From positions 47,401 to 111,400 of the forward strand of contig JABLTG010000047.1 of NCBI GenBank assembly GCA_016618085.1: a DNA stretch of 64,000 nt, in the 5' to 3' direction. Each line of letters starts with the position of its first letter. Position 1 is the stretch's first letter. The DNA comes from Neovahlkampfia damariscottae (taxonomy: Eukaryota; Heterolobosea; Selenaionea; Neovahlkampfiida; Neovahlkampfiidae). The notes below the pieces were generated by a model. That model was not told the DNA's origin and did not search any database. It saw only the letters and a list, made by a program, of their open reading frames with translations. Positions 13,791-49,874 of this stretch are shown here, piece after piece. The position numbers and the translations under genes were made by a program.

Positions 13791-16684
13791 ATGAGCAACA
13801 AAAAGAGAATAGTGTTGATTGAAAACCCTATTTATTTCAATGAAAACAACTTGAATATACCAGATTTTGAATATCACTCCAATTATGATGAATTCACTAT
13901 ACATTTTTGGATATTTCTAGTTTGAAAAATAAAAACTGAAATTCAAGACAAAATATAATGAAGCAGAAAAATTAATTTTTAAAAAGAATGGATTGATATC
14001 AATACATTTGGATGATTATTCAGAAAGTCTAAAAATTAAAATCAAAGAACAAGAAATGAAAACAAATAAATTAAAAATATTCAACTGGAATTTTGTTTCA
14101 ATAAAAAAAAAGAAAGAAAAAATGGAACTATATTTAAATGATGAACTAGAAAATATATTGAGTTTTAATGACTTAAAATGGAATTTTTCAAAATATCAAT
14201 TCTTAAAATTTGATGGTCTTTTTTCAAATTTTTATATTTTTAATTTTATCAAAAATGATAGAGATAAAAAAGAACCAACATCATTTTCATCACAATATCC
14301 ACCAAATCCATTAGAATTCTATCCTTTAAGGAGTTTAAAAGAATTAGATGAATGGAAACCAAAATTAAATGAATCTATTTCAAATATAAAATTAAGAAAA
14401 AAGAAAGAAAGAAAATATAAATTTATTCATTGTCATGACATGGCAGGTGGTTATTTAGAAGATAGATTCATTCAAAATGGGAATTCATTTCATGTCTATA
14501 ATTTTTATGAATGGAAGGTAAATATATATTTTATCAATCTTATTTGTGATTAGAATATTGATATTTTTATTTATTTTTCACATTATAGACTTACAATTCC
14601 ACGTAATTTGTTCAATATTTAATATTCTATTTTTAGCACCTTCATGGATTAATGCATCACATAAAAATGGAGTAAAAATATTAGGTACTTTTATTACAGA
14701 ATGGGAGGGAGGTATTTCAGACAATATAAAATTATTGGATGAGATTGATAAATATGTTGAGTTATTTATAAAATTAGTAGAATATTATAATTTTGATGGA
14801 TGGTTTTTTAATCTTGAATCAAAATTACCAGATGAAAGTTATGTTAAAAAGATGATTGAATTTTTAGAAAAATTAACAAAAAAAATACATAAAAGAATTC
14901 CAGGGAGTTTAGTATTTTGGTATGATTCTGTTATTGAAAATGGTGAAGTTAAATGGCAAAATGAATTAAATAAAAAAAACAAAATAGTAAGAATTTCTAG
15001 AGGTAATTTTTAAATATTTTAGTTTTTTGATTCATGTGATGGAATATTTTTGAATTATGTTTGGTCTCCTGAAATAATAAAAAATAGTTCAATATTAGCT
15101 GAAAAAGATAGAAATATTGATATATTTACAGGGATAGATATATGGGCAAGAGGATGTTTAGGTAAATTTGAAACATATAAATCATTAGAAATTATAAAAA
15201 AATGTGAAACATCCACTGCATTATTTGCACCTGCTTGGACATTTGAGTCAAAAGGAAGTTTAGATAGATTTAATTTTGAATGTAGAGAGAATCAATTTTG
15301 GAATGGAATTGAAAGAATTGAATTATTAAAAAATCCAAATGGTGAAATGAATGAATTTGGAAATCCTTTTTGGGGTTGGAAATTAGAACATGGTGGATCA
15401 GGTTGGTTAATTGAAAATGAAAAAGGATATAATTCTGATAATGCATGGGTAACATCATATCAAATATGTAAAAAAAGTCAAATGATTGATCTTTCTAAAT
15501 TTGATGATTTATTAAAAACTAGACCTATAATTACAGTAATTCAATGGTATTGTGGTACAAGTCCTAATTTTAAAGATATTCACTATTTAAAAATTGAATT
15601 GAGAGATGAAAATCAAATTGTTATTGATTCATTTGATACAAATGAAATTATTTGTTCAGAAGAATGGAAGAAAATTGAATATTCTTTTATTAATTATTAC
15701 AAAAATGTAAAATATATTTATTGGGAAGATGGAGGAAAAGATATTGAAAATTGGTCTGGTAATTTTGGTTCAAAATCATCTGGATCATCATTATTTTTTG
15801 AATTAAAGACAAACAAATCTGTAAATTATTATTCATCTTCAAATATTTTAAATTCAATTTCTTCCTTTTTTACATCATTTAATCAAGGAATTGGTAAAAA
15901 ATATTTCAAAAATGGAAATTTACTTTTAGAACAAAATTATAATAATTTATCATATCAAGATATTCAACCAACTTATTTGAATAATGTGATTGAAGGTGAA
16001 TTGAATTCAATTAAAACATCTATTTCATATAATATTGGATATTTTGGATCATCAAGTTTTGAATTTAATGGTAATTTTAATCATAGAGAATTAAATTATT
16101 CAATATTCAAATTATTTGAATTTGAATTATTAATTAAAAATGATAGTTATTTTGAAGTATCTATTTTTGGTATGAATCAAATTGATTGTTATTTCATTTT
16201 GATTTTTAATGATGAATCAAAATTTAAAACCAAAAAATGTGAAATATTAATTAATAAATGGTCAATAGAAAAAATAAAGATACCAAATGAATTTAATGAT
16301 CATATTTTAAAAAGTGTATTATTTTTTATATCATCATCAACATTTAATACTTCAAATTATTTTAAATTGAATTTAGGTCATTTGAGAATTACCAATAAAA
16401 TAGAAGATAAAAAACCAAATAATATTTCAAATTTAAAATATTTTAAAACATTTAATTTAAATTCAATTGAAAATGGAATAGTGTTAAATAATTTGAATTT
16501 ATCTTGGAATAAAGATGATTCAATTGAGTTTATAGAAATATATTTGAACAAAAAATTTTTATCAAGATGTTATGGAAATGTTTATTGTATTGAAAATTTA
16601 GAAGAAAAGAAAGAATATGAAATTGATATAATTCCATTTTCTTCAATTTTAATTGAGGGTAATTCTTTTAAATTAGAAATATAG
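13791..16684 (+). CDS. ENGASE: Cytosolic endo-beta-N-acetylglucosaminidase (GH85) with lectin-like N-terminus
   Basis: Cleaves the chitobiose core of free or misfolded-protein N-glycans. Five exons, introns 13920-13947, 14518-14553, 14603-14636 and 14987-15022. GH85 motifs in order: FIHCHDMAGGYLEDRFIQ, NIDIFIYFSHYRLTIP, WINASHKNGVKILGTFITEW, FDGWFFNLESKLP (N-x-E with the catalytic Glu), FWYDSVIENGEVKWQNELN, FFDSCDGIFLNYVW, DIFTGIDIWARGCLGKFET and TALFAPAWTFES. The first about 190 residues are not GH85: EFTIHFWIF, WNFVSIKKKKEKMELYLND and similar strands suggest a laminin-G/concanavalin-like domain. The C-terminal about 400 residues look like further beta-sandwich modules. No signal peptide, matching a cytosolic enzyme. 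The stop codon is 3 nt from that of the convergent gene. Confidence 0.9.
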
Positions 16685-30604: not shown

Positions 30605-33600
30605 ATGAACGAAGTGGAGAAAAAGAAAGTGCAGGAGCGTTTTCTTTCATCCTTAGGAGAGTGTCAAACTTTACATGAACACTTTCATAATTTTACTCTT
30701 GACCCAAAATACACCAACAAAGAAATATTTACATTTATTAATTCAAATGGAAAAGAAGAAAAATATTCTTTATCAGCATCACAAATTGATTATGAAGCAC
30801 AGAAAATAGCAAAACATTTAAAATCAATTGGAAACAAAGTTGGTGATAGAATCTTACTATTGTTAAATCCAGGTAAAGATTTTATTTTGGGATTTTTTGG
30901 TTGTCTTTATGGTAAATATTCATTTTAAAATTAAAAACAAGGTGGTTTTATTGCTGTACCTGCTTATCCACCTATGACTGATAAACATATGGAAAAAGTA
31001 TTGATTATTGGAAAAGACTGTGAAATTAGTTCTATTTTACTTTCAGATGAATTTTATAATTTAGTTGAAAGAGATATTAAAGAAATGGAAAATATGATTG
31101 AATTAGGAAAATTAAATTGGGTTTCTTTAGGAAAAATAGAAGAATTAAAAAATGAAAAATGGGAATTACCTAATTTAACAAAGAATTCAATTGCATTACT
31201 TCAATATACATCAGGTTCAACTGGAAATCCAAAAGGGTAAAATTATTATATTTTTTTAAAAAATCAATATTTTAGAGTTATGGTTACACATTTAAATTTA
31301 ATGACACATTGTCAAATGTTTATTAAGAATTGGGATTATGATGAAGATAAACATAGTTCAGTTACATGGTTACCACCATATCATGATATGGGATTAATAG
31401 GTGGTATTATATTACCAATTGGTTGTTTAAATAAGACTATTATGATGTCACCTTTAACATTTATAAAAGAACCAATAATTTGGTTAAAAATGATTTCAAA
31501 ATATAAAGCAACAATGTCAGGTGGTCCAAACTTTGCATTTCAATATTGTATTCAAAAATTAAAAGATGAAGATTTAAAAGATATTGATTTATCAAGTTTA
31601 ATTATATTATTTACTGGTGCAGAACCTATTCAATCTTCAACTTTAAATTCATTTTTTGAAAAATTTAAAAATATTGGTTTTAAAAAACAAATGTTCTTTC
31701 CTTGTTATGGACTTGCAGAAGCAACTTTATATGTTTCAGGTGTTAATATTGAACAAGAACCAAAAATATTAAAAGTTAATAAAAATGAATTTTTGAATGG
31801 AATTATTAAACAACAACAAGAAGAAGAAGAAGAAGAAGGAAAAGAAACTAAAGATATAGTTTGTTGTGGTTATTGTTTTCAAAATGTTATTATTATGAAT
31901 GAAGAATTAGAAATTAAAAATAGTTTTGAAATTGGTGAAATATTAATTGAACAAAATAATAATACACCTTTAGGATATTGGAAAAAAGAAAAAGAAACCA
32001 ATGAATATTTTAAATTTAAAGTGAATGATAAATATTATTTTAAGACTGGTGATTTAGGTTTTCTATCCAATGAAAATGAAATTTATATTTGTGGTAGAAA
32101 AAAAGATTTAATTATTATTAATGGAAAGAATTATTATCCACAAGATATTGAATATACTGTTGAAAATTCACATATTGATTTAAGAAAAGGTTGTTGTTCT
32201 GCATTTTCAATTGAAAAAGAAGGTGAAACTGAAAAAGTGATCATTATTATTGAATCAAAATCAAAAAATGAAAATATTTTTAAATCAATCAGATTAAATG
32301 TTTTGAAATTACATCAAATTAATATTTATAAAATTATATTAATTAAACCAAAAACTATTGAAAAAACAACAAGTGGTAAAATTAGAAGATCAAAAATGAA
32401 ATCATTATTTATTGAAAATAATTTAAAATCAATCATATTAACTCAAGATGAATTCAATGGTAATAATGATGATAGTATTGGTAATAGTATTGGTAATGAT
32501 GGTTTAAAGAGTGATCCTGATGATTTAAAGGTTAACAGTGATGATGAAAATACAAAGAGTAATGATGATTCAAAACAAGATCAATTGAATCAAAATATTA
32601 AATCAAAACAAGAATTAAAAAATGAATATATTAATTTAATAAAATCAAAAATATCAAATTTATTAAATATTAAAATAGAAGATATTAGTTCAAAAAGACA
32701 ATTTTCAGAATTTGGATTAGATTCAATTCATTCGACATTATTAATTTCTGAATTAAGTAATATTTTAAAAAGAGAAATATCACCAACATTATTTTATGAA
32801 TTTACAAATATTGAATCATTATCAAATTATTTATCAGATATTAATGAACAAGAACAAGAACAAGAACAAGAACAAGAACAAGAATTAAAAGATAATGATG
32901 ATGATGATATTGCAGTGATTGGTATTTCTTTAAGATTTCCAAAGAGTCAAAATGAAAAAGAGTTTTGGGATTTATTATCCAATGGAAAAGATGGAATTAG
33001 TAAAAGTGAAGACTTTCCAAATATATCAGGAGGATATTTAAAAAAAGAATTAAAATTAAATTTTGATAATGAATTCTTTTCAATTTCAAATAGAGAGAAA
33101 ATGAAAATGGATCCACAACAAGGAATGATGTTAGAATTAACATGGGAATTATTAGAAAATAGTGGAATTAAACCAAGTTCATTAAATGGAAGTAATACAG
33201 GAGTATTTATTGGTGCAAGTTATAATGATTCAACATTAACATCATTAACCAATGAATCAACAATACATGAATTAACTGGAAATGCATTAAGTATAATTTC
33301 AAATAGAATATCATATTATTATAATTTTAAAGGACCTAGTTTTATTTTAGATTCAGCATGTTCATCATCATTATTATCAATTCATCAAGGTTGTTTAAAT
33401 TTAAATTCAAATGATTGTAATTTAGCTATTTGTGGTGGAATTAATTTAATATTTTCAAATGAAATTACAAATTCATTAAAAAATTCATCATTTTTATCTA
33501 ATGATTTTAAATGTAAAACCTTTGATAAAGATGCAAATGGTTATGTTAGATCAGAAGGTGGTGGTTTAGTTTTATTAAAAAAATTAAAAAATGCAATTAA

Positions 33601-36600
33601 AGATAAAAATCAAATTTATTCAATTATTAAATCATCTTCAATAAATCAAGATGGTAAATCAAATGGTTTAACTTCACCAAATCCAAAATCACAACAAATA
33701 TTAATTAAAAATGCTTTAAAAAAGAAAAATTTAAATTTAAATGATTATCAATATTTTGAATGTCATGGTACTGGTACAAAATTAGGTGATCCAATTGAAG
33801 TTAATACTATTCAAAATATATTAAAAATGGAATCTAATTCATTATCCAATCAAATCTTTATTGGTTCAGTAAAATCAAATATTGGTCATTTAGGTATTTT
33901 AAATCATTTTAATTTTTATTATTTTTAGAGTCTGCATCTGGTATTGCAGGATTTATTAAATCTTGTCTTTCTTTAAAATATAATAAAATACCACCAAATT
34001 TACATTTTAAAAATCCAAATCCATTAATTAATTTTGATAATTTAAAAGTACCATTAAAATTAGAAAATTTTAATGAAAATAAAAGTAATCATTTTTTTAT
34101 TATTAAATATTTAAAGGAAAATTAATTGGTATTAATTCATTTGGATTTGGTGGTACAAATGTTCATTTAATTTTAGAAAATTATTCAATAGATTATCAAT
34201 CAAATATTGATTTAAAAGAAGAAAAAGAATATTTAATTTTATTTTCATCAAAAACAAAGAAAGGATTAAATAATTTAATAAGAAAATATATTATAATATT
34301 AAATGATGAGAAAAATGAAATAAATATGAGAGATTTAAGTTATACTTTAATGAATCATAGAGATCATTTTGAAGAATATAGAATTAGTTTTATTGTTTCA
34401 AAAAAAGAAGATTTAATTTTAAAATTAAATAATTATATTTCAACTAACATAAGTAATAATACAATAGAAAAAAAAGAAATAAAAAAGAATATATTTATAT
34501 TTCCAGGTCAAGGTGATATTGAATTAATTACAAAATGTAAAGATTTAATTTTAAAAGATGATCATTTTAAGAATATATTTGAATCAAATTGTTTAAAAAT
34601 ATTTCCAAATTTGGTGAATGAAATATATTCATTAAATAATATTGAAAATAATGATTTAAAAATTATTCAACCTTTAATTTTTATTACACAAATTAGTTTA
34701 GTCTCTTGGTTAAAATTATTTAATATTGAACCAAATGGTGTAATTGGTCATAGTTTTGGTGAAATTACAGCATCTTATATTTCTGGTTTAATTTCATTGG
34801 AAGACGCAAAAATGATAATTATTGAGAGAAATAATTTAAATTTAAAAAAAAGAGTAAAACCAATGTTAATTTCAAGAATAAAAAAAGAAAATTTAAAAAC
34901 ATTAAAAACATTCAATTCTGATAATATTGAAATTGCATCAGAAAATGATTTAAATTCAATTACATTTACATCGACAAATGAAAATGATTTAATTTTATTC
35001 TCAAATGAATTAAAACAAAATGGTTATTCATTTAAATTCTTAGACTCAAATTATTCATTTCATTCAAAAGAAATGTTATCTTTTGAAAAAGAATTTAAAG
35101 AAAATTTAAAAAATTTAAAAAAAAATAAATTAAAAATTAAATTCTTTTCATCCACTTTGGGTAAAGAATTTATTGAAAAAGAACAAAATCAATTGAATGA
35201 TTTCTATTTTAAGAATTTAAGAGAACCTGTTTTATTCAAAGATTCAATTCAATCTATTAATGAAAATGAATATAATAATTATTTTATTATTTCACCAAAA
35301 GATTTTCTTTCATCCTCAATTAAATCTTTAAAAAGAAATTCAAATATTTTTATTTTAAATTCACATTTATTTTCAAATTTATTCAATTCAAATTTTAAAT
35401 TTGAATGGTTAAAATCAAATGGAAAATTCATTTCAAATTTACCAAATTATGATTGGAATAGAAAATTAATTAAAGAATTAACCAATCAAAAAGATGATAA
35501 AATGAATATTGATTTAAAACAATTAAATGAATTTAACATTTATTTAGAAGATTTATGTAAATATTATGTTAATAATTCATTTTTAAACATTATTAAAACT
35601 AAATTGAATGATTCAACATTTTATACTTTTAATGAACTTTTAAATATTTTTGAAATTAAAAGAATTGAAGAAAAGAATGTTAAATTATTTCTTCATTTAA
35701 TTAAAAAATTAAATTATTTTGAATATTATGAAAATGATAAATTAGTATCTATTGATGATCCAATTAAAAAGAAGAATGAAAATGATATTAAATTTAAATT
35801 AAAAAAGATTAAAGAACCTATTGAATTTTTAATAAATAATAAATTTGATGATATATTTTCAAATGAATTAAATTTAATTAAAATATGTGGTGAAAATCTA
35901 TTAAATGTTTTAAAAGGAAAGAAGAGTTCAATTGAATTATTATTTCCAAATGGATCATTAAATTTAGTTGAAAATATTTATGAAAAATCATTCTTTTCCA
36001 AAATTTATAATAAAAAGATTGAAAATTATTTTAAAAAAGAAATAAAAGAAAAAGAAATAAAAATATTAGAAATTGGTGGTGGTACAGGTGGATTAACATC
36101 ATTCATTTTACCAACATTAAAAAATAAGAAAGTAGAATATTATTTTACAGATATTTCAAATTTATTTTTAAAAAGATCAAAAGAAAAGTTTAAAGAATAT
36201 TCTTCAATTAAATATAAAATATTAGATATTGAAAAAGATGAATTAAATGAATTTAAAATGAATTCATTTGATTATATTATTGGTGCAAATGTAATTCATT
36301 CAACCAAAAATTTAAATCAATCTTTAAATAATATTTTTAAATTATTAAAAAATAATGGTAAATTAATTTTATTAGAAATTACAAATCAACATTTATTTTT
36401 TGATTTAACTTTTGGTTTAACTGATGGTTGGTGGAGATTTAATGATGAAAGAAATTATCCATTAATCAATTTTGAAAATTGGAAAATTAAATTAAATAAT
36501 TTAAATTTTAAAAATATTCAAAATTATAATCAAAATATAAATGATAAAATTGAATTACAAAATGTAATCATTGCTGAAAAGTTGATAGATTATGAAATAA

Positions 36601-38120
36601 AACAAGAAGAAGAAAATGATCCAATCATATTGGAAGAAGAAAAAGAAAATAAAATAAAATTAGAATTAAATGAAAATGAAATTAAAGAATTAATTTTAAA
36701 TGAAAATGATGAATCTAAATTTAAATTAAATTTAAAAACATTTATTAAATCATTATTAAAACAAATTTTGTTAATTGATCAAAATGAAGATTCTATTGAT
36801 GAAAATGTATCACTTCAAAATATTGGAATGGACTCATTATTATTCATGGAAATTAGAAATATTATAAAGAAAGAATTAAATTTAATCATTCCATTTGAAA
36901 ATATTAATGAAAATACATCCATTAATGATTTGATAAATATTTTATTTGATCAAAAATTCAATCAAAAAGAACAAGAAGAAGAAGAAATTAAAGAAGAAGA
37001 AGATTCATATAATATTACTAATTTAACAGAAGATACAACCTATGGATCACCATATATTCTTGGAATGGGAATTGGAAGACCTGATTATTGTCATCAACAA
37101 ATTGAATTAGAAAATGTTGCGATTGAATATTATAAGAAATATGTTAATATTAATAATCAAAATTATTCAGATAGAATACATAAAATATTTTCAAATAGTG
37201 AAATTCAACAAAGATATTCTGTATTTGATATTTATTCAGTTGATCAAAATAAATTTAAATCATTTCAATCTAGAAATGAAATATATGAAACAGAAGCAGT
37301 AAAATTAGCATTTAAATCATGTACCAATGCATTAAAAGAATGGGGTGGTGATAAAAAGAAAATTACACATTTGATATCTGTTTCAACAACAGGAACAAAA
37401 ATACCTGGAATTGAATTTGAATTGGTCAATTTATTAGGATTATCAAAATCAGTTCAAAGAATTGCAATTAATTTTATGGGTTGTTTTGGTGCTCTACCTG
37501 GTATTAAAACTGCATCAGCATTCGCAAAATTAAATAAGAAGAATAGAGTTTTATTAGTATCAACTGAAATTTGTTCAATTCATATTGAAGATGATCCTAA
37601 TGATGAAAATTTTGTTAGTTCTGCAATATTTGCAGATGGTTCAGGTGCTTCTGTTATTGGTTGTAAACCTGAAAAAAATGAAAAGGCTTATTGGGAAATT
37701 CAAAAAATTGCATCTTTGACAATGGAAAATAGTTTAGATAAAATGTTTTGGAAAATTACAGATAAAGGTTGGAAATTAGGATTATCAAAAGAAATTCCAA
37801 TTTTAATTCATGATCATATTAAATCATTTGTTCAAAATTTATTAGGTACAAATCAATTTGATGATTTTGATTTTGCACTACATCCAGGTGGAAAAGCTAT
37901 TTTATTGGCCATTGAAAATTCATTAGAATTGAAGAAAAGTCAAACAATTGAAAGTTGGAATGTGATGAAAAATAATGGAAATATGTCATCTGCATCAATA
38001 TTTTATGTTTTAAATGATTTAAGATTTTCAGCAAAAAAAGATTATTGTTCATGTCTTGTTTTTGGTCCTGGATTGGTTATTGAAGGAGCATTATTAAAAA
38101 GAGTTATTAGTGAAAAATAA
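30605..38120 (+). CDS. Hybrid polyketide synthase: FAAL-ACP-KS-AT-MT-ACP-type III PKS (Steely-like)
   Basis: 2,459 residues; introns 30912-30941, 31237-31275, 33894-33928 and 34085-34116. Domains in order: fatty acyl-AMP ligase (YTSGSTGNPKGVMVTH, WLPPYHDMGLIGG, CYGLAEATLYVSG); ACP1 (FGLDSIHS, Ser near 685); ketosynthase (DSACSSSLLS near 898, ECHGTGT near 1032, SNIGHLES); acyltransferase (GHSFGEITASYISG near 1339); methyltransferase (LEIGGGTGGLTS near 1779); ACP2 (IGMDSLLF near 2032); chalcone-synthase-type domain with its full triad (Cys in MGCFGALPG, His in LHPGGK, Asn in NNGNMSSAS) and FGPG loop. No ketoreductase, dehydratase or enoylreductase is visible. Inferred logic: a fatty acid is adenylated, loaded, extended and C-methylated by the type I module, then passed to the type III domain for cyclisation. 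The fused C-terminus is like dictyostelid Steely enzymes, but these lack a FAAL start and carry reducing domains. Confidence 0.92.
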
Positions 38121-43231: not shown

Positions 43232-46200
43232 TTAAAATTTTGAACACCATAAATGAATTTTACCAACTGACATATTTTGACCACCATAGTTGTTTAAAAA
43301 TTCGAATCTGACAATATTAATATTTTCATAAATTTTTTCATTGAAATCATAATAGAGAGTTGTACCTTGAGCTACTTTTGGAATTGTATAAATTCCAATA
43401 AGATTTGATTGATCATTTGATAAAAGAGTAATTCTAATTTCCCTAACTTGAGATACTAAACCTTCAATTTGATCATGTTTTATTGTTAATTGAAATCCTG
43501 AAACATATGGATCATTTAAAGATAAATCTAAAACATTTAAATCTGAAGTTTTTAATATTTCTGATTTTAATTGAACTTTTGATGTTTTTTGTTTAGATTG
43601 TAAAATAGATTGATATTTTTGATCTTCAATTTCATTCAATTTAAAATTATTTTCTTTTGGTATAAATGGTTTTCCAAAAATTAAAATTCTACCTAAATGA
43701 AGAAAAGATTGTTTTGAACAATTTAAATCAATTCTAATTAATCTAGATGGATTTAAATCATCATTTAAAATTAATTCATTTTTTTGTAATGGTTTTAAAT
43801 TTTTTAAATTCCAATTTAAATTTGAAGTTGTAAATTTTGGTAATCTATTTCCAATTGATATTTTAATTTGATTAATATTTTCATTTTCATATCCAATTTT
43901 ATCATTAATTAAAACTATTTTTGATAAAATAGAATCAGAAGGTAATGTAATGATAATTGAAACATCATTAATATTATTTGGCGCGAACCAATAAATATCA
44001 TTTGATAAAGATTTAAATAAAATTGATTCTATTGGATAAGAATCATGATGAGTTTCAACTGAACTTAAAATACCACCATTTGGAAATTCATTTAAACAAT
44101 ATTCATTTTGATTAAATTCATTTAAATTTTTTGAAAATGAATTAATGGATAATAAATCAGTTTTAAAATTACCATCTTGTATTTTTCTATTTTCTTCAAT
44201 GGATATTAATTTTTTAATTTCTTTAATCATTTCATTTTGATTTTTAATAATATTAAAACAAGTTTGACAAACAATTTGAGGTGAATTCCATTTAAATTCA
44301 GTTATTGATATTTTATCTTTTGAAATACAATTCTTACAAAAACTTAAAGAACAATAACGACATGAAACATATATTAATTTTATACTTGCACTACAAGAAT
44401 AACAATTATTTGTTTTACTTTTCTTTCTAATAAATGTTTCAATTTTATCATCTCTTTTATAAATAAATTGATTTGGATCAAAATTTGATACTTTAAATCC
44501 TTCTTGAACTAAAATATCATCTCTTTCTTCTGTTGTCATTTTTAATTTTAATCTTAATAATTCTAATTCTAATGAATTAGTAAATGTTAATTTCTTTTTA
44601 ATATTTAAAAGGTATTCTTTTTTTCTTTCTTTTTCTTTATTTTCTAATTCATTTTGAATTTGTGTTTGTGTTTGGGTTTGTGTTTGTGATTGGGTTTGTG
44701 ATTGTGTTTGAATTTGGGTTTGAATTTCTTTAATTTCTTTTCCTTGTTTAATTTCATCAATACCAAAATCTAATAAAACATCTTCTTTTTTAATTTCATC
44801 ATCATCAAAATTTAATAATATTTCTTCTTTAACATTTTCATTTTGATGAAAAGTTAAATGAAATGGTTTTAAATTTTCTTTTTGAATTCCAAATATTTGA
44901 ATTGGACCTAATGTCATTGAATTACCAGGTGATAAACCATAAAAAGTTAAACGAACTACTCTCATATTATAATTTTCAATTTTACCATTAAAATTATATA
45001 ATGTATTTGAATTATTTTGATTTAAAGAATTATCAGTTGAATATAATAATTTAGTTGAATCTTCACATCTTGGTAATTGTAATTCTTGAAAACCAACAGT
45101 ATTTTCATTTAAATATTTACCAAAAAATATATCTACTTTTCTTGGAGATGTTAATTCATTTAAACCATGACGTAAAGTTAAAGAGAATTCAGTTACTTTA
45201 CAATAAAAAGGTAAATAAATAAATACTTCAACAAAATCAAAATCTCTTGGACAAATCCAAAAATATTTTGAAGATGAATTTAATAAAATGAATTCTTGAG
45301 ATAAAGAATTAATTTCAGTTGGAATATCTTTTAAAATAAATGAAGGATAAGGTGAACAATATCTTAATCTCTTTTCAAAATCAATAGAAGAAAATAAATT
45401 ATTTTGATCAAAATATTGATCAAAGTTCATTCCTAAAAACATTTCATATTGTGCATTTCTTGATTTATCAAATATTGTATTTTGAATTCTTCTTTCAACA
45501 ATAATTTTAGTATTACTTTGTGCTTTTGGTAAATGTTCTGCAAATTCTCTTAAATGTTCTGTATGCATTGCAACTGTATTTGTAAATAATAAACTACAAA
45601 CGTCTCCATTATTTATAAACATTTCACTTAATTTCATTAATAAAAATGATGAAAATTCATTTTTAACTTTTGATAATTGTAATGCTTCTGATTCAATTGG
45701 ACATAATGATTCAACTCCAATATTCTTTAATAAATTTGGTATTGTTTTTAATGTTATAAAAAATATTGATAAATTTGTACGATCTAATGAATCTGCACAA
45801 TTTACACGAAATAATCCGTTTTGTTTCATTGATATTTTTGAATCTAATATCTTTCCACTTGAATTTAATCGAAATGTACCTGAATTAATTGAATTCTCTT
45901 CAACTACTCCATTTATAGTTTCCCATAACTTTTCAACTGCAAAATCAAATCCATTTAATTTCTTATTAGTTAACCAATCAAAATTTAACATTTGTATTTT
46001 ATCATTTTTAATTTCTTTTAATGATTCTTTAAAATAATTGGCTAAATTTCCTTCTTGTGGATGAACATCTTTAAATCTCAATAAATTTAATAATGTTAAT
46101 TTTTTAATATTTTTATATTTATCAAATATTTTATCATAATAAATTTGAACATTTTTAAAAGGTTCTTCTGAAATAATAATTTGTGCATCTTGAAATTGTG

Positions 46201-47108
46201 AATTAATTTCTGATTTCCAATGAATTGGTACAGTACCTCTTCTACCAATAAAAGATGACCAATTTATAATTTGTTTTTCTTGTTCATTCCAAACTATAAT
46301 TTCAAATTCATATTCATTTCCTGGTGAAATATTATAATTTAATCCTCTTGAAAAATATCTTGTTCCTGGATTTAAATTACTTCTTTTAGTTAACATTCCA
46401 ATTGATATTTTATCTTTTTTTGAACTAATTTGTTTTCCAACTGATAATCCTTGTAATAATATACAACATAAATCATTCATTCCAATTCTTCTAAATTCTT
46501 CTGATATAAATTCATTCCAACGAAATTCTTTATCATATCCAAAATAAACTGAATTACTATTTGGAAAAGGACAAGTTAAATCTAATGTTTCACAATAAAA
46601 ATGTAATCCATTTAATGGATAATCTAATAATAATTCCATATTCTTTGTTTCATTTTTATTTTGTTGAACTGGATATCCAAGTGATATTGTTATAAATCCA
46701 CTCTCTTTAACTGTATATACTTTATGTTCAGGTGGTAATGTTAAATCTAAACTAGTTTTAGTTATAACAACTAAATATCCAAATCCACCACAAATATAAT
46801 ATCCTACTATTGCTTGACATTTTCTTTTATTTCTTTTTAAAAATATATTAACTTCTTACGTAACTGTTTTTAATATTTTCTTTCCCATTGAAACTTTTTC
46901 TAATGCTTCTCTTGGTGTTGAAAATAAATCAATTCCTTTTTGACCTGTATATAATAACCTTCCTGTATATCTCTCAATAGTTATTAATTGAGTATCTTGT
47001 TTATTTGCAAGAGAACTTATCAAAAACTATTTATCTTTTTAGTGAATTTAATATTGATACCCATCTTCCACCAACTGTTTCAACAACAAGGTGACTCGTT
47101 TCTCTCAT
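43232..47108 (-). CDS. SAC9-like phosphoinositide phosphatase with a zinc-finger insertion
   Basis: 1,268 residues, two small introns near the 5' end. N-terminal SAC domain: QLITIERYTGRLLYTGQKG, AIVGYYICGGFGYLVVITKT, VYTVKESGFITISLGYPVQ and PGTRYFSRGLNYNISPGNEY. The catalytic CX5R motif lies in FRVNCADSLDRTNLS. The order and the RRGTVPIHWKSEI and VHPQEGNLANYF blocks match the SAC9 type known best from plants. The long C-terminal half contains beta-sandwich-like modules and a cysteine cluster (CYSCSASIKLIYVSCRYC, FCKNC, VCQTC) that resembles a FYVE/RING-type double zinc finger. Plant SAC9 controls PI(4,5)P2 at membranes; activity here is inferred from the intact CX5R. Confidence 0.8.
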
Positions 47109-47194: not shown

Positions 47195-49874
47195 TTATTT
47201 TCCAAATAATTTGTTAAGATATGCAACATAATCATAAGCATCATCTTTTTGTGGCATAACAGACATTAAAAATTCAGAATCTTCTTTATCCATTGCAGCA
47301 CCTAATTGACCAGCAGTGATTAAATCGTTTCCACCTGCTAATTCTTTATATGCACCAAGTACATCTTCGTAACCAGTTCCTTCTTTTGCCACTGAAACTA
47401 AGTAATCAATAAATTCAGAGAATGTAATTTTTCCATCACCATCAGTATCAAATGATTTAAAAACACTATCTAATTCATTATCTGGAATATCTTCACCAAT
47501 TGAAGCACATGCAGCTTTAAATTCATTCTTTGATAATGCACCTGATTTATCTAAAAAGAAATATATGTTAAAAATTTTGTATTTCTTTTTACCTTTATCA
47601 AAATATTGAAATGTTTCACGAAATTCATCTAATTGTTCTTGAGATACTGAAGTCATTTTTTTTGCAAAAATTTGATTTTCTAAACCTTTTGATCTTTGAA
47701 GAAAAGCACCTTGAATTTGTTCATTTAAACCTTGTAATTCACCAATTGTATATTCAGATTGTTCAACAATATCATTTGATTCTAATTGTGAACTTAATTC
47801 TGAATTCTTTTCTAATTCTTCTGATGATTTTTTAGTTGATTCTTGACCAATTTTTTGTAATTGAGCTAATTGATCTTCAAATTCACCATCTTGTTCTTTT
47901 TGAATTTCATCTAAAGTTGTTTTTCCCCAAGTTAAATAATTTGAAGCAGCTTCATTAAATTCATCTAATAATTTTTTGTTTTTTTCTTGTTTTTCTCTTT
48001 CTGGTCCTAAAGTTTCTTTTTTTTCATCCATTTTATTTTTTGTTAAATCACATTTTTCTTTAAGATCAGATAATTTAATTCTTGAATAAATTTCAGGATC
48101 AGCATTTGCGTCTGTAACTTTTTTATGAAGTTCTTCTAATTCAGAAAGAAAATGTAAAGAGTCTTCATATTGTTTAATATTATTTTCTAATGCTTCTTCT
48201 GCAACATCAACATCTTTAACATTAGAAGCAATAACAGGTTCAACTGCATCTGTTAAACAACCTTCTAAAACTAAATTTAAAGAATCTGATTTTGTTGAAA
48301 ATTCAACACACATTGCAGATATTTCTTCTCTTCTAACTAAAACTTCTTCTAATTGTTTTAATTTATCATTTGATGAATTTGAAACTGAATCATTTCCTTC
48401 TTTCATTTTAATATTTGTTTCCATAACTTCATCTGATTCTGAATGTTCTGCATCAATAACTTGTGTACCAACTTCAACAGCTGAATTTAAAGTATTCTTT
48501 ACATTTTCTAATTCATTTGAAAATGCTTTTAACATATTTACATTAGCACGTAAACTTTCTAATGGTACACTTTCTGGGTCTGACATTTCATTTCCACCTA
48601 ACCATTTTTCTTTTTCTTCTTGCCAATCTAATACTTTTTTAGATCTAGCTCTATATCTTCCTAATTGCATTTCAATATGTTTCATAAGATTTAATGCATC
48701 TCTTAAATTCTTTTCATATTCTTTTAATGCTCCTTCTAATACTGTCCATTTTTCATTAATTGCATTAGTTGTTAATTCTTCAGGTGGATAATAAACTGGG
48801 AATTTTTCTTGTTTTTGTTTTGATTGAAGATTAACTAATAAAATTGCTAAATCAGCTTTTTCTTTTGTATTTGTTGGTTTTTCTGATTTTTTAAATTCTT
48901 GAAATTGTTTTTGATGTTCTTGAACTTTTGAAAGATTATTTCCAAAACTTTTAACATCTGAATTTGACATTAAACCAGTTTTTTCGTCTGTCCATGAAAT
49001 TAATTTTTTTGCTCTTTCTTCATAATCTGTTGCCATTTTTGCATTATCTCTTGCATTTTGTGCAACTCTTGCAATCATTCTTGCTTGTTTTTCAGATTTA
49101 TTTGATGAAGCAAATTTCTTCCAATAATATGCAACATATGTCATGATTGATTTATCATCAGGTTTAACAGCATTAACAATATCATCAACATCTAATAATT
49201 GTGGAATATCTAATTGTTCTTCAGCAATAGTAAATGCTTTTGAAAGGTTTCCTGCATCATCATTAGCATCAAGTGAATCATAATCAATAAGATCAGGTCT
49301 ATGTTTATGAATTAAAGCACAGAATCCTAATCCATTCTTCCATGAAGTATTAAAATTTTGAATATTAACTCCATTATATCCTTTGGTTTTCTTTTTACAC
49401 CATAATAATAAACCTTCTTTTGCGTTCATTTGTTCTTCAGAAATGTCTTGAATTTCAAATTTGTGGATAAGACACCAAATCATACCAAGAATTTGCATTT
49501 TTTCTCCTTTGTTAATTGATTCAGCAGAATATTGAAGTTTAATTCCAACACTTCCAACAAATTTATTGATTTCTGTAACAACAGTTTTCAAGTTTTGAAT
49601 TTGTTGAATTTTTAATTTAGGTTTTTGAACATATTTTCCTAAACTTTCTTCAGAAATAATTTCATAAAGATTAATGAGATTAATTCCATCAGCTAAATCT
49701 GTAATTAAGTCTTCAACTTTTAAACTTCTTTTTTTTAAATGAGCATTTACCCATCTTGTGAAAGTCTAAATATTATTATTTAATTATTTATCCATGATGG
49801 TCTTACTCTTGTTTGGATTTCTTCCCATTCACCGCCCACTATTTGGATAAGTACTTGAAATTCTTTCTCTTACT
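47195..49874 (-). CDS. Alpha-actinin, F-actin crosslinker
   Basis: 853 residues; introns of 35, 41 and 42 nt. Tandem calponin-homology domains: WEEIQTRTFTRWVNAHLKK, then KMQILGMIWCLIHKFEIQDI, KEGLLLWCKKKTKGYNGV and NFNTSWKNGLGFCALIHKHR (PDLIDYDSL next). A spectrin-like helical rod of about 450 residues follows, then two EF-hands with intact calcium ligands (DKSGALSKNEF and DTDGDGKITFSEF), and the C-terminal EF-like module. Domain order and length are those of alpha-actinin; the rod is divergent, as in many protists. The start codon is assembled by splicing: A at 49874, TG at 49838-49837. Confidence 0.93.
49839..49873 (-). other. Intron splitting the alpha-actinin start codon
   Basis: Minus-strand GTAAGAGAAA...TCCAAATAG, 35 nt. 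Exon 1 ends in ...AACAA and exon 2 starts TGGGCGGTGAA, so the only ATG that opens the conserved CH-domain frame (Met-Gly-Gly-Glu-Trp-Glu-Glu) appears after splicing. Confidence 0.6.

Follow-up and report, generated by a model that had tools for sequence, protein, structure and literature searches.

Gene structure and domain order

The window analysed here, a stretch of 64,000 nucleotides from contig JABLTG010000047.1 (positions 47,401 to 111,400), contains at its positions 30605-38120, on the forward strand, a five-exon gene whose splicing and translation gave a coding sequence (CDS) of 7,380 nt with a single terminal stop codon and a protein of 2,459 aa. A Pfam profile search of this protein revealed the domain order fatty acyl-AMP ligase (FAAL), acyl carrier protein (ACP), ketosynthase (KS), acyltransferase (AT), C-methyltransferase (C-MT), ACP and type III polyketide synthase (PKS). 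We consider it rather probable that the gene encodes a Steely-like type I/III hybrid PKS of a probable amoebozoan, perhaps a non-dictyostelid one, in which a FAAL-ACP loader takes the place of the dehydratase (DH), enoylreductase (ER) and ketoreductase (KR) domains and which would provide a route to a 4-methyl-5-alkylresorcinol.

The exons are located at 30605-30911, 30942-31236, 31276-33893, 33929-34084 and 34117-38120, and they are separated by four GT-AG introns of 30 bp (30912-30941), 39 bp (31237-31275), 35 bp (33894-33928) and 32 bp (34085-34116) with GC contents of 8-13%. A first-pass annotation of this DNA had described one 2,459-residue frame. Its coordinates, length and domain order were right, but in the DNA that frame is broken: a stop-to-stop reading of the locus consists of separate open blocks, which become continuous only after removing the four introns. 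Introns 1 and 2 lie inside the FAAL domain and introns 3 and 4 inside the KS, the third at its GHLE/SASG junction. Some two thirds of the FAAL, the first ACP (ACP1) and most of the KS are encoded by exon 3 (872 codons), and exon 5 (1,333 codons, 4 kb) encodes the AT, the C-MT, the second ACP (ACP2) and the type III domain. Thus, FAAL and ACP1 are found upstream of introns 3 and 4, everything from the AT to the type III domain downstream of them, and the KS bridges both. Since the KS is continuous across these two introns and the last four domains lie together on exon 5, both halves of the protein belong to a single gene.

The possibility that a chimeric assembly, a pseudogene or wrong splicing had joined unrelated genes was also considered. 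The GC content of the exons, which drops stepwise from exon 1 to exon 5 (29, 26, 22, 19 and 19%) in a CDS with 21% GC overall and 8% at third positions, would agree with such an artefact. However, the KS spans introns 3 and 4, the two long exons are free of stop codons, the motifs are intact throughout and several neighbouring genes can be fitted with introns of this style. Open exons together with intact motifs are far beyond chance, and we regard an artefact as very improbable.

The intron scan covered lengths of 24-89 bp, GTA or GTT donors and GC contents up to 20%, longer introns being invisible to it, and in the neighbouring genes the shortest or lowest-GC candidate was chosen, with alternatives listed at many sites. 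Under these settings, short introns of about 27-46 bp fitted the genes for a cullin (37, 33, 46 and 35 bp), XRN (42, 40, 36 and 28 bp), ATG9 (34 bp), DcpS (35 bp), LNS2 (41 bp) and a SAC9-like phosphatase (27 or 36 bp), and the Pfam matches of the cullin continue in order across the breaks in its gene. In the alpha-actinin and L7 genes no candidate passed the filter. As several genes of the window fit introns of similar size, those of the PKS gene are believable. Three further candidates inside exon 5 were set aside, the uninterrupted frame there aligning with Steely1. The available excerpt of PMC3188802 gives mean intron lengths of 146 nt for D. discoideum and 177 nt for D. purpureum, whereas those of the present gene measure 30-39 bp. 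As a separate observation, the very short, GC-poor introns found in several genes of the window are unusual for an AT-rich, Dictyostelium-like genome.

All domains of the protein gave Pfam matches. The FAAL comprises an N-terminal adenylation domain at 30719-31981 (aa 39-436; AMP-binding, 4.3e-50) and a C-terminal subdomain at 32105-32431 (aa 478-586; AMP-dom_DIP2-like, 1.1e-13) with the motif TTSGKIRR at 32366. ACP1, the putative loading carrier, is located at 32639-32833 (aa 656-720; PP-binding, 1.4e-10), with its serine in FGLDS (32711-32734). It is followed by the KS with its C-terminal extension at 32903-34328 (aa 744-1196; ketoacyl-synt 1.7e-68, C-terminal model 2.8e-37 and KAsynt_C_assoc), in which a motif search located the cysteine (33350-33370) and both histidines (33764-33778 and 33875-33933). 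The AT, delimited by Pfam at 34647-35312 (aa 1303-1524; Acyl_transf_1, 1.6e-23), shows GHSFGE at 34746-34763 and YSFHS at 35052-35066. The C-MT core lies at 36066-36365 (aa 1776-1875; Methyltransf_12, 5e-19) and has the motifs LEIGGGTGG and NVIHST, and ACP2 lies at 36744-36938 (aa 2002-2066; PP-binding, 1.5e-9), with its serine in IGMDS (36822-36842). Finally, the type III domain at 37038-38105 (Chal_sti_synt N and C, 6e-34 and 4e-22) has its cysteine at 37470-37490, its histidine at 37872-37892 and its asparagine at 37974-37997. We take all these motifs to have the catalytic roles usual for their families, and the AT is presumably specific for malonyl units, judging from the phenylalanine in its HAFH-type motif.

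No KR, DH or ER model matched the protein at E-values up to 1, nor at values up to 10 in the main unannotated stretches (35319-36065 and 36366-36743). The distance from the post-AT motif to motif I of the C-MT is 199 aa, and in the chain numbering of CurJ motif I stands at position 226. As this spacing resembles that of CurJ, the gap between AT and C-MT is most simply filled by the N-terminal part of the methyltransferase itself, which probably begins at about aa 1577. Hidden reducing domains between AT and C-MT or behind the C-MT were rejected on the Pfam search together with this spacing. The domain order with intact motifs and no reducing domains proposed by the first-pass annotation was thus borne out, and the contrary finding it had named beforehand, reducing domains concealed between AT and C-MT, did not appear in the profile search.

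Kinship of the domains

Sequence comparison over its whole length places the first domain nearer to the FAALs than to the CoA ligases, and we assign it to the former. Among solved structures it scored highest with 3kxw (405 bits), followed by 7r7f, named polyketide synthase (383 bits), and the AMP ligases FadD32 (239 bits) and FadD23 (217 bits). We take 3kxw to be LpFAAL, and 3g7s, lower in the list with 84 bits, to be its first true CoA ligase. Scores of 152-226 bits were reached by rows under the names 'acyl-CoA synthase' and 'fatty-acid-CoA ligase FadD28', which we assume to be FAALs all the same. The alignment with 3kxw spans aa 37-580 without a large gap and does not delimit the FAAL-specific insertion. 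In NCBIfam, searched with exon 3, AMP-ligase models gave 272 and 265 bits, the long-chain-fatty-acid--CoA ligase model PRK07768 gave the nearly equal value of 262, and PRK06187 gave 82, all of them below the curated cut-offs. A plain acyl-CoA ligase was rejected on the PDB scores, the NCBIfam result being less clear. The highest-scoring NCBIfam model for exon 3 was that of Pks13 (401 bits, far under its cut-off of 2100), which is in keeping with a predicted FAAL-fed ACP-KS.

The best single contiguous match of the KS-AT part in the PDB was Pks16 (9nju, 441 bits), presumably from D. discoideum, followed by CurL (417 bits) and Pks13 (366 bits); the first-ranked row, 7zma with 568 bits, is a sum over two KS regions (269 and 292). 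The likeness to Pks16 is known from the KS-AT part alone. The closest structure to the methyltransferase was CurJ (5thy, 9e-49), so that by homology it is assigned as the core of a PKS C-methyltransferase with its S-adenosylmethionine (SAM) motif.

The type III domain showed its best PDB match with Steely1 (2h84, E-value 1.2e-75), the next entry having 1.9e-44. A tree was built with 84 rows: the window domain, Steely1, two plant enzymes and the best 80 of at least 260 bacterial relatives, Steely2 being left out. In this set the window domain was the reciprocal best match of Steely1 (260 bits, against 188 for the next one) and its sister in the tree, with support values of 97/87. When either of them was dropped, the remaining one kept its place beside the plant rows. 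The domain has the Cys-His-Asn triad and the chalcone synthase (CHS) fold, and its AlphaFold2 model (pLDDT 93) again had Steely1 (2h84) as the first Foldseek match. Sequence, tree and model therefore support a pairing of this domain with the Steely clade, of which Steely1 was the sole reference. The type III phylogeny suggested in the first-pass annotation thus gave a pairing with Steely1 against plant and bacterial enzymes, its Steely2 part being outside this set.

A fusion independent of Steely, in which a type III PKS of bacterial type was joined a second time to an amoebal FAAL-PKS, could also be proposed. The best bacterial enzyme is 36% identical to the window domain and Steely1 37%, bacterial enzymes have the same E-C-H and Trp positions around the active site (structure alignment, 50 of the 80 bacterial loci), and the tree tool gave a long-branch warning for both the window domain and Steely1. 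In contrast, Steely1 is the best structure match, the reciprocal match and the 97/87 pairing agree, the placement was stable after dropping either row, and no type III fusion was detected among 595 genomes of bacteria from two phyla (299 and 296), where the type III frames among the matches listed measured 191-569 aa. An independent fusion is therefore quite improbable. The set of 299 genomes also gave two matches with the ACP only, in long frames of 3,344 and 2,506 aa. In the flanks of the best 80 bacterial type III loci no relative of the FAAL, ACP, KS, AT or C-MT was detected at 1e-6, in a search in which many flanks were shorter than 10 kb and the ACP queries of 90 aa were a weak probe. 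Viral contigs yielded 15 stretches with the pattern and no relative. The idea that the gene as a whole was recently acquired from bacteria was rejected on its introns, its KS-AT kinship and its Steely kinship. Type III PKSs of Legionella and Tatlockia that stand alone (L004, L007, L011, L025, L027, L029, L030, L034 and L039) were 34-37% identical to the window domain and, in the tree, grouped with those of other gammaproteobacteria within a clade made up mainly of Bacteroidota.

The Steely proteins (StlA or Steely1, StlB or Steely2) share with the present one a single chain in which type I KS-AT and ACP domains precede a type III PKS at the C-terminus. We take StlA to have a full reducing type I module and no FAAL. 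For StlB, the excerpt of PMC4058090 gives the order KS, AT, DH, ER, KR, ACP and PKSIII, the same in A. subglobosum, and that of PMC7259674 indicates that this elaborate architecture is kept across dictyostelids. Compared with StlB, the protein described here lacks DH, ER and KR and has a FAAL-ACP added at its N-terminus, and for this reason we name it Steely-like and not StlA or StlB. The earlier statement on the complete reducing module and the missing FAAL of Steely enzymes thus stands on these sources for StlB, and for StlA it is our assumption.

A FAAL-fed N-terminal ACP followed by KS, AT and ACP without reduction is known from the FadD32-Pks13 system of mycolic acid condensation. The present protein resembles it in its FAAL-fed N-terminal ACP and in the top score of exon 3 noted above, a score far under the cut-off, and it differs in having the FAAL fused, no thioesterase, a C-MT inserted and a type III domain at its end. 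A biosynthetic parallel in the available text of PMC11837247 and PMC8086630 is the cylindrocyclophane or (7.7)paracyclophane route, in which a free fatty acid passes through FAAL, ACP, type I extension and type III PKS to give an alkylresorcinol. There the FAAL (CylA), the ACP (CylB), the type I enzymes (CylD/H) and the type III PKS (CylI) are separate bacterial proteins, whereas here they form a single polypeptide of a eukaryote, which additionally has a C-MT and whose type III domain is of Steely type. The mksC product of Microcystis, an AMP-binding enzyme fused to an ACP, resembles the present FAAL-ACP.

Neither a FAAL-Steely fusion nor a Steely outside dictyostelids was found in the literature searched (mostly titles and the beginnings of abstracts among the hits listed, outside preprints and most subscription journals), and no prior catalogue of this architecture, named beforehand as a finding against its novelty, appeared there. 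In its available part, PMC12767764 places Steely fusions across dictyostelids 'but not elsewhere', with PMC9489281 as a second source.

Proposed biosynthetic route and its alternatives

In the route that we propose, the FAAL would adenylate a free fatty acid and load it, through the acyl-AMP, onto ACP1. The KS would accept the acyl chain from ACP1 and condense it with the malonyl unit that the AT had loaded onto ACP2, and the beta-keto group would stay, the ketoreductase being absent. The C-MT would then methylate the alpha carbon to give a 2-methyl-3-oxoacyl chain, which ACP2 would hand over to the cysteine of the type III domain. After the addition of two malonyl units by this domain, aldol condensation and decarboxylation would close the ring and yield a 4-methyl-5-alkylresorcinol. 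A hexanoate starter would give MPBD itself, and a methylated alkylpyrone may be formed as a side or alternative product. According to the excerpt of PMC3171403, carrier domains can supply starters to type III enzymes, and that of PMC5055082 describes MPBD as a product of StlA that acts in the expression of aggregation genes and in the maturation of spores.

From chemical reasoning, an alpha-methylated chain should lead by aldol closure to the 4-methyl-5-alkylresorcinol, that is the MPBD skeleton, and by lactonisation to a pyrone. An acylphloroglucinol is poorly supported because Claisen closure would put the acyl and methyl groups on the same ring carbon, which would be quaternary, blocking aromatisation. 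Of the products suggested in the first-pass annotation, the methylated alkylresorcinol and the pyrone would consequently fit, and the acylphloroglucinol would not. As to the steps it had proposed, fatty-acid priming is favoured by the solved relatives of the predicted FAAL, and the hand-over to the type III domain by the apparent Steely type of this domain (sequence, tree and Foldseek). An amoeba-like host is likewise favoured, by the alpha-actinin rod described below and by the Pks16 match of the KS-AT part. For a single non-reducing extension with C-methylation, the domains are present and there is neither room nor profile for DH, KR or ER, and the module would be expected to act only once.

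The product would be different if the C-MT were silent or acted elsewhere, namely an unmethylated alkylresorcinol or, via Claisen closure, an acylphloroglucinol of the DIF/THPH type. The activity of a methyltransferase is unreadable from its sequence. Moreover, the excerpt of PMC9489281 names the acylphloroglucinol THPH as the product of StlB, and the domain list of StlB in the excerpt of PMC4058090 names no methyltransferase. However, both the SAM motif and the NVIHST motif are present and the catalytic core closely matches the CurJ methyltransferase, and hence we consider a silent C-MT unlikely.

Another alternative is that the type III domain takes its substrates from free acyl-CoAs or is cut off by proteolysis, in which case the FAAL-type I half would make a product of its own, a methylated beta-keto acid or ketone. 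StlB is cleaved late in development and its freed chalcone synthase domain works alone, as stated in the available part of PMC9489281, and transfer in cis is for this reason uncertain in the present protein. Against such a separation, Pfam found in the protein no thioesterase or reductase able to unload ACP2, and the type III domain begins only 75 aa past the ACP2 serine motif. We therefore give this alternative a low probability.

Besides this cleavage of StlB and the unreadable methyltransferase activity, several other points weigh against a methylating, fatty-acid-primed Steely-like PKS of an amoebozoan. Repeated rounds of extension by the KS-AT-MT-ACP module are conceivable. In Foldseek, many enzymes of the CHS fold scored nearly equal to Steely1, and to this are added the similar identities of Steely1 and the best bacterial enzyme, the long branches and the use of Steely1 as the sole Steely row. 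On the side of the FAAL, the PDB rows bearing acyl-CoA names and the score of PRK07768 point the other way, and the GC gradient across the exons does so for the gene as a whole. Finally, the amoebozoan placement is suggested by one alignment of 187 residues in a neighbouring gene, by intron size and by the kinship of the PKS.

Neighbouring genes and biological meaning

That alignment comes from the alpha-actinin gene at 47198-49765 (reverse strand). With 77 bits, alpha-actinin A constructs came nearest to its rod, ahead of spectrin and the other actinins (49 bits or less), yet the rod was only 31% identical (56 of 180 positions) to an alpha-actinin A construct that we take to be from Dictyostelium. 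This divergence and the very short introns would point to an amoebozoan outside the dictyostelids. Ribosomal protein L7, which matched 78 PDB sequences, gave no placement of the host. In the alignment, the EF-hand region of the same alpha-actinin contains an insertion that keeps the frame, resembles an unspliced short intron and was not listed by the intron scan. Upstream of the PKS gene, at 14522-16681 (forward strand), two same-frame stretches of an endo-beta-N-acetylglucosaminidase (GH85) precede an F-box-associated (FBA) domain; the frame is split by stops between 15010 and 15023, where an intron is likely. At 43235-46855 (reverse strand), the SAC9-like phosphoinositide phosphatase carries a FYVE finger between two GBDL domains. 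No tailoring gene for a halogenase or an O-methyltransferase was identified among the 40 stop-to-stop stretches scanned with Pfam of the 78 with at least 90 aa; four of the remaining 38 belong to the PKS gene itself. Searches of the window for tRNAs and Rfam families gave no match.

With regard to its meaning, we tentatively propose, as a possibility short of even odds, that a non-dictyostelid amoebozoan makes a signal or defence lipid of the MPBD type with a single-chain, fatty-acid-primed Steely. The fusion would then predate dictyostelids, and fatty acid loading and de novo synthesis would be interchangeable front ends of the same type III back end. The protein could also serve as a one-protein template for methylated alkylresorcinols from fed fatty acids, in the field of olivetol and cannabinoid-precursor chemistry. 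A second architecture of Steely type, in which a fatty-acid loader replaces the reducing domains, makes it possible to study the origin of the Steelys that produce signals and to ask whether signalling by alkylresorcinols is older than the social amoebae.

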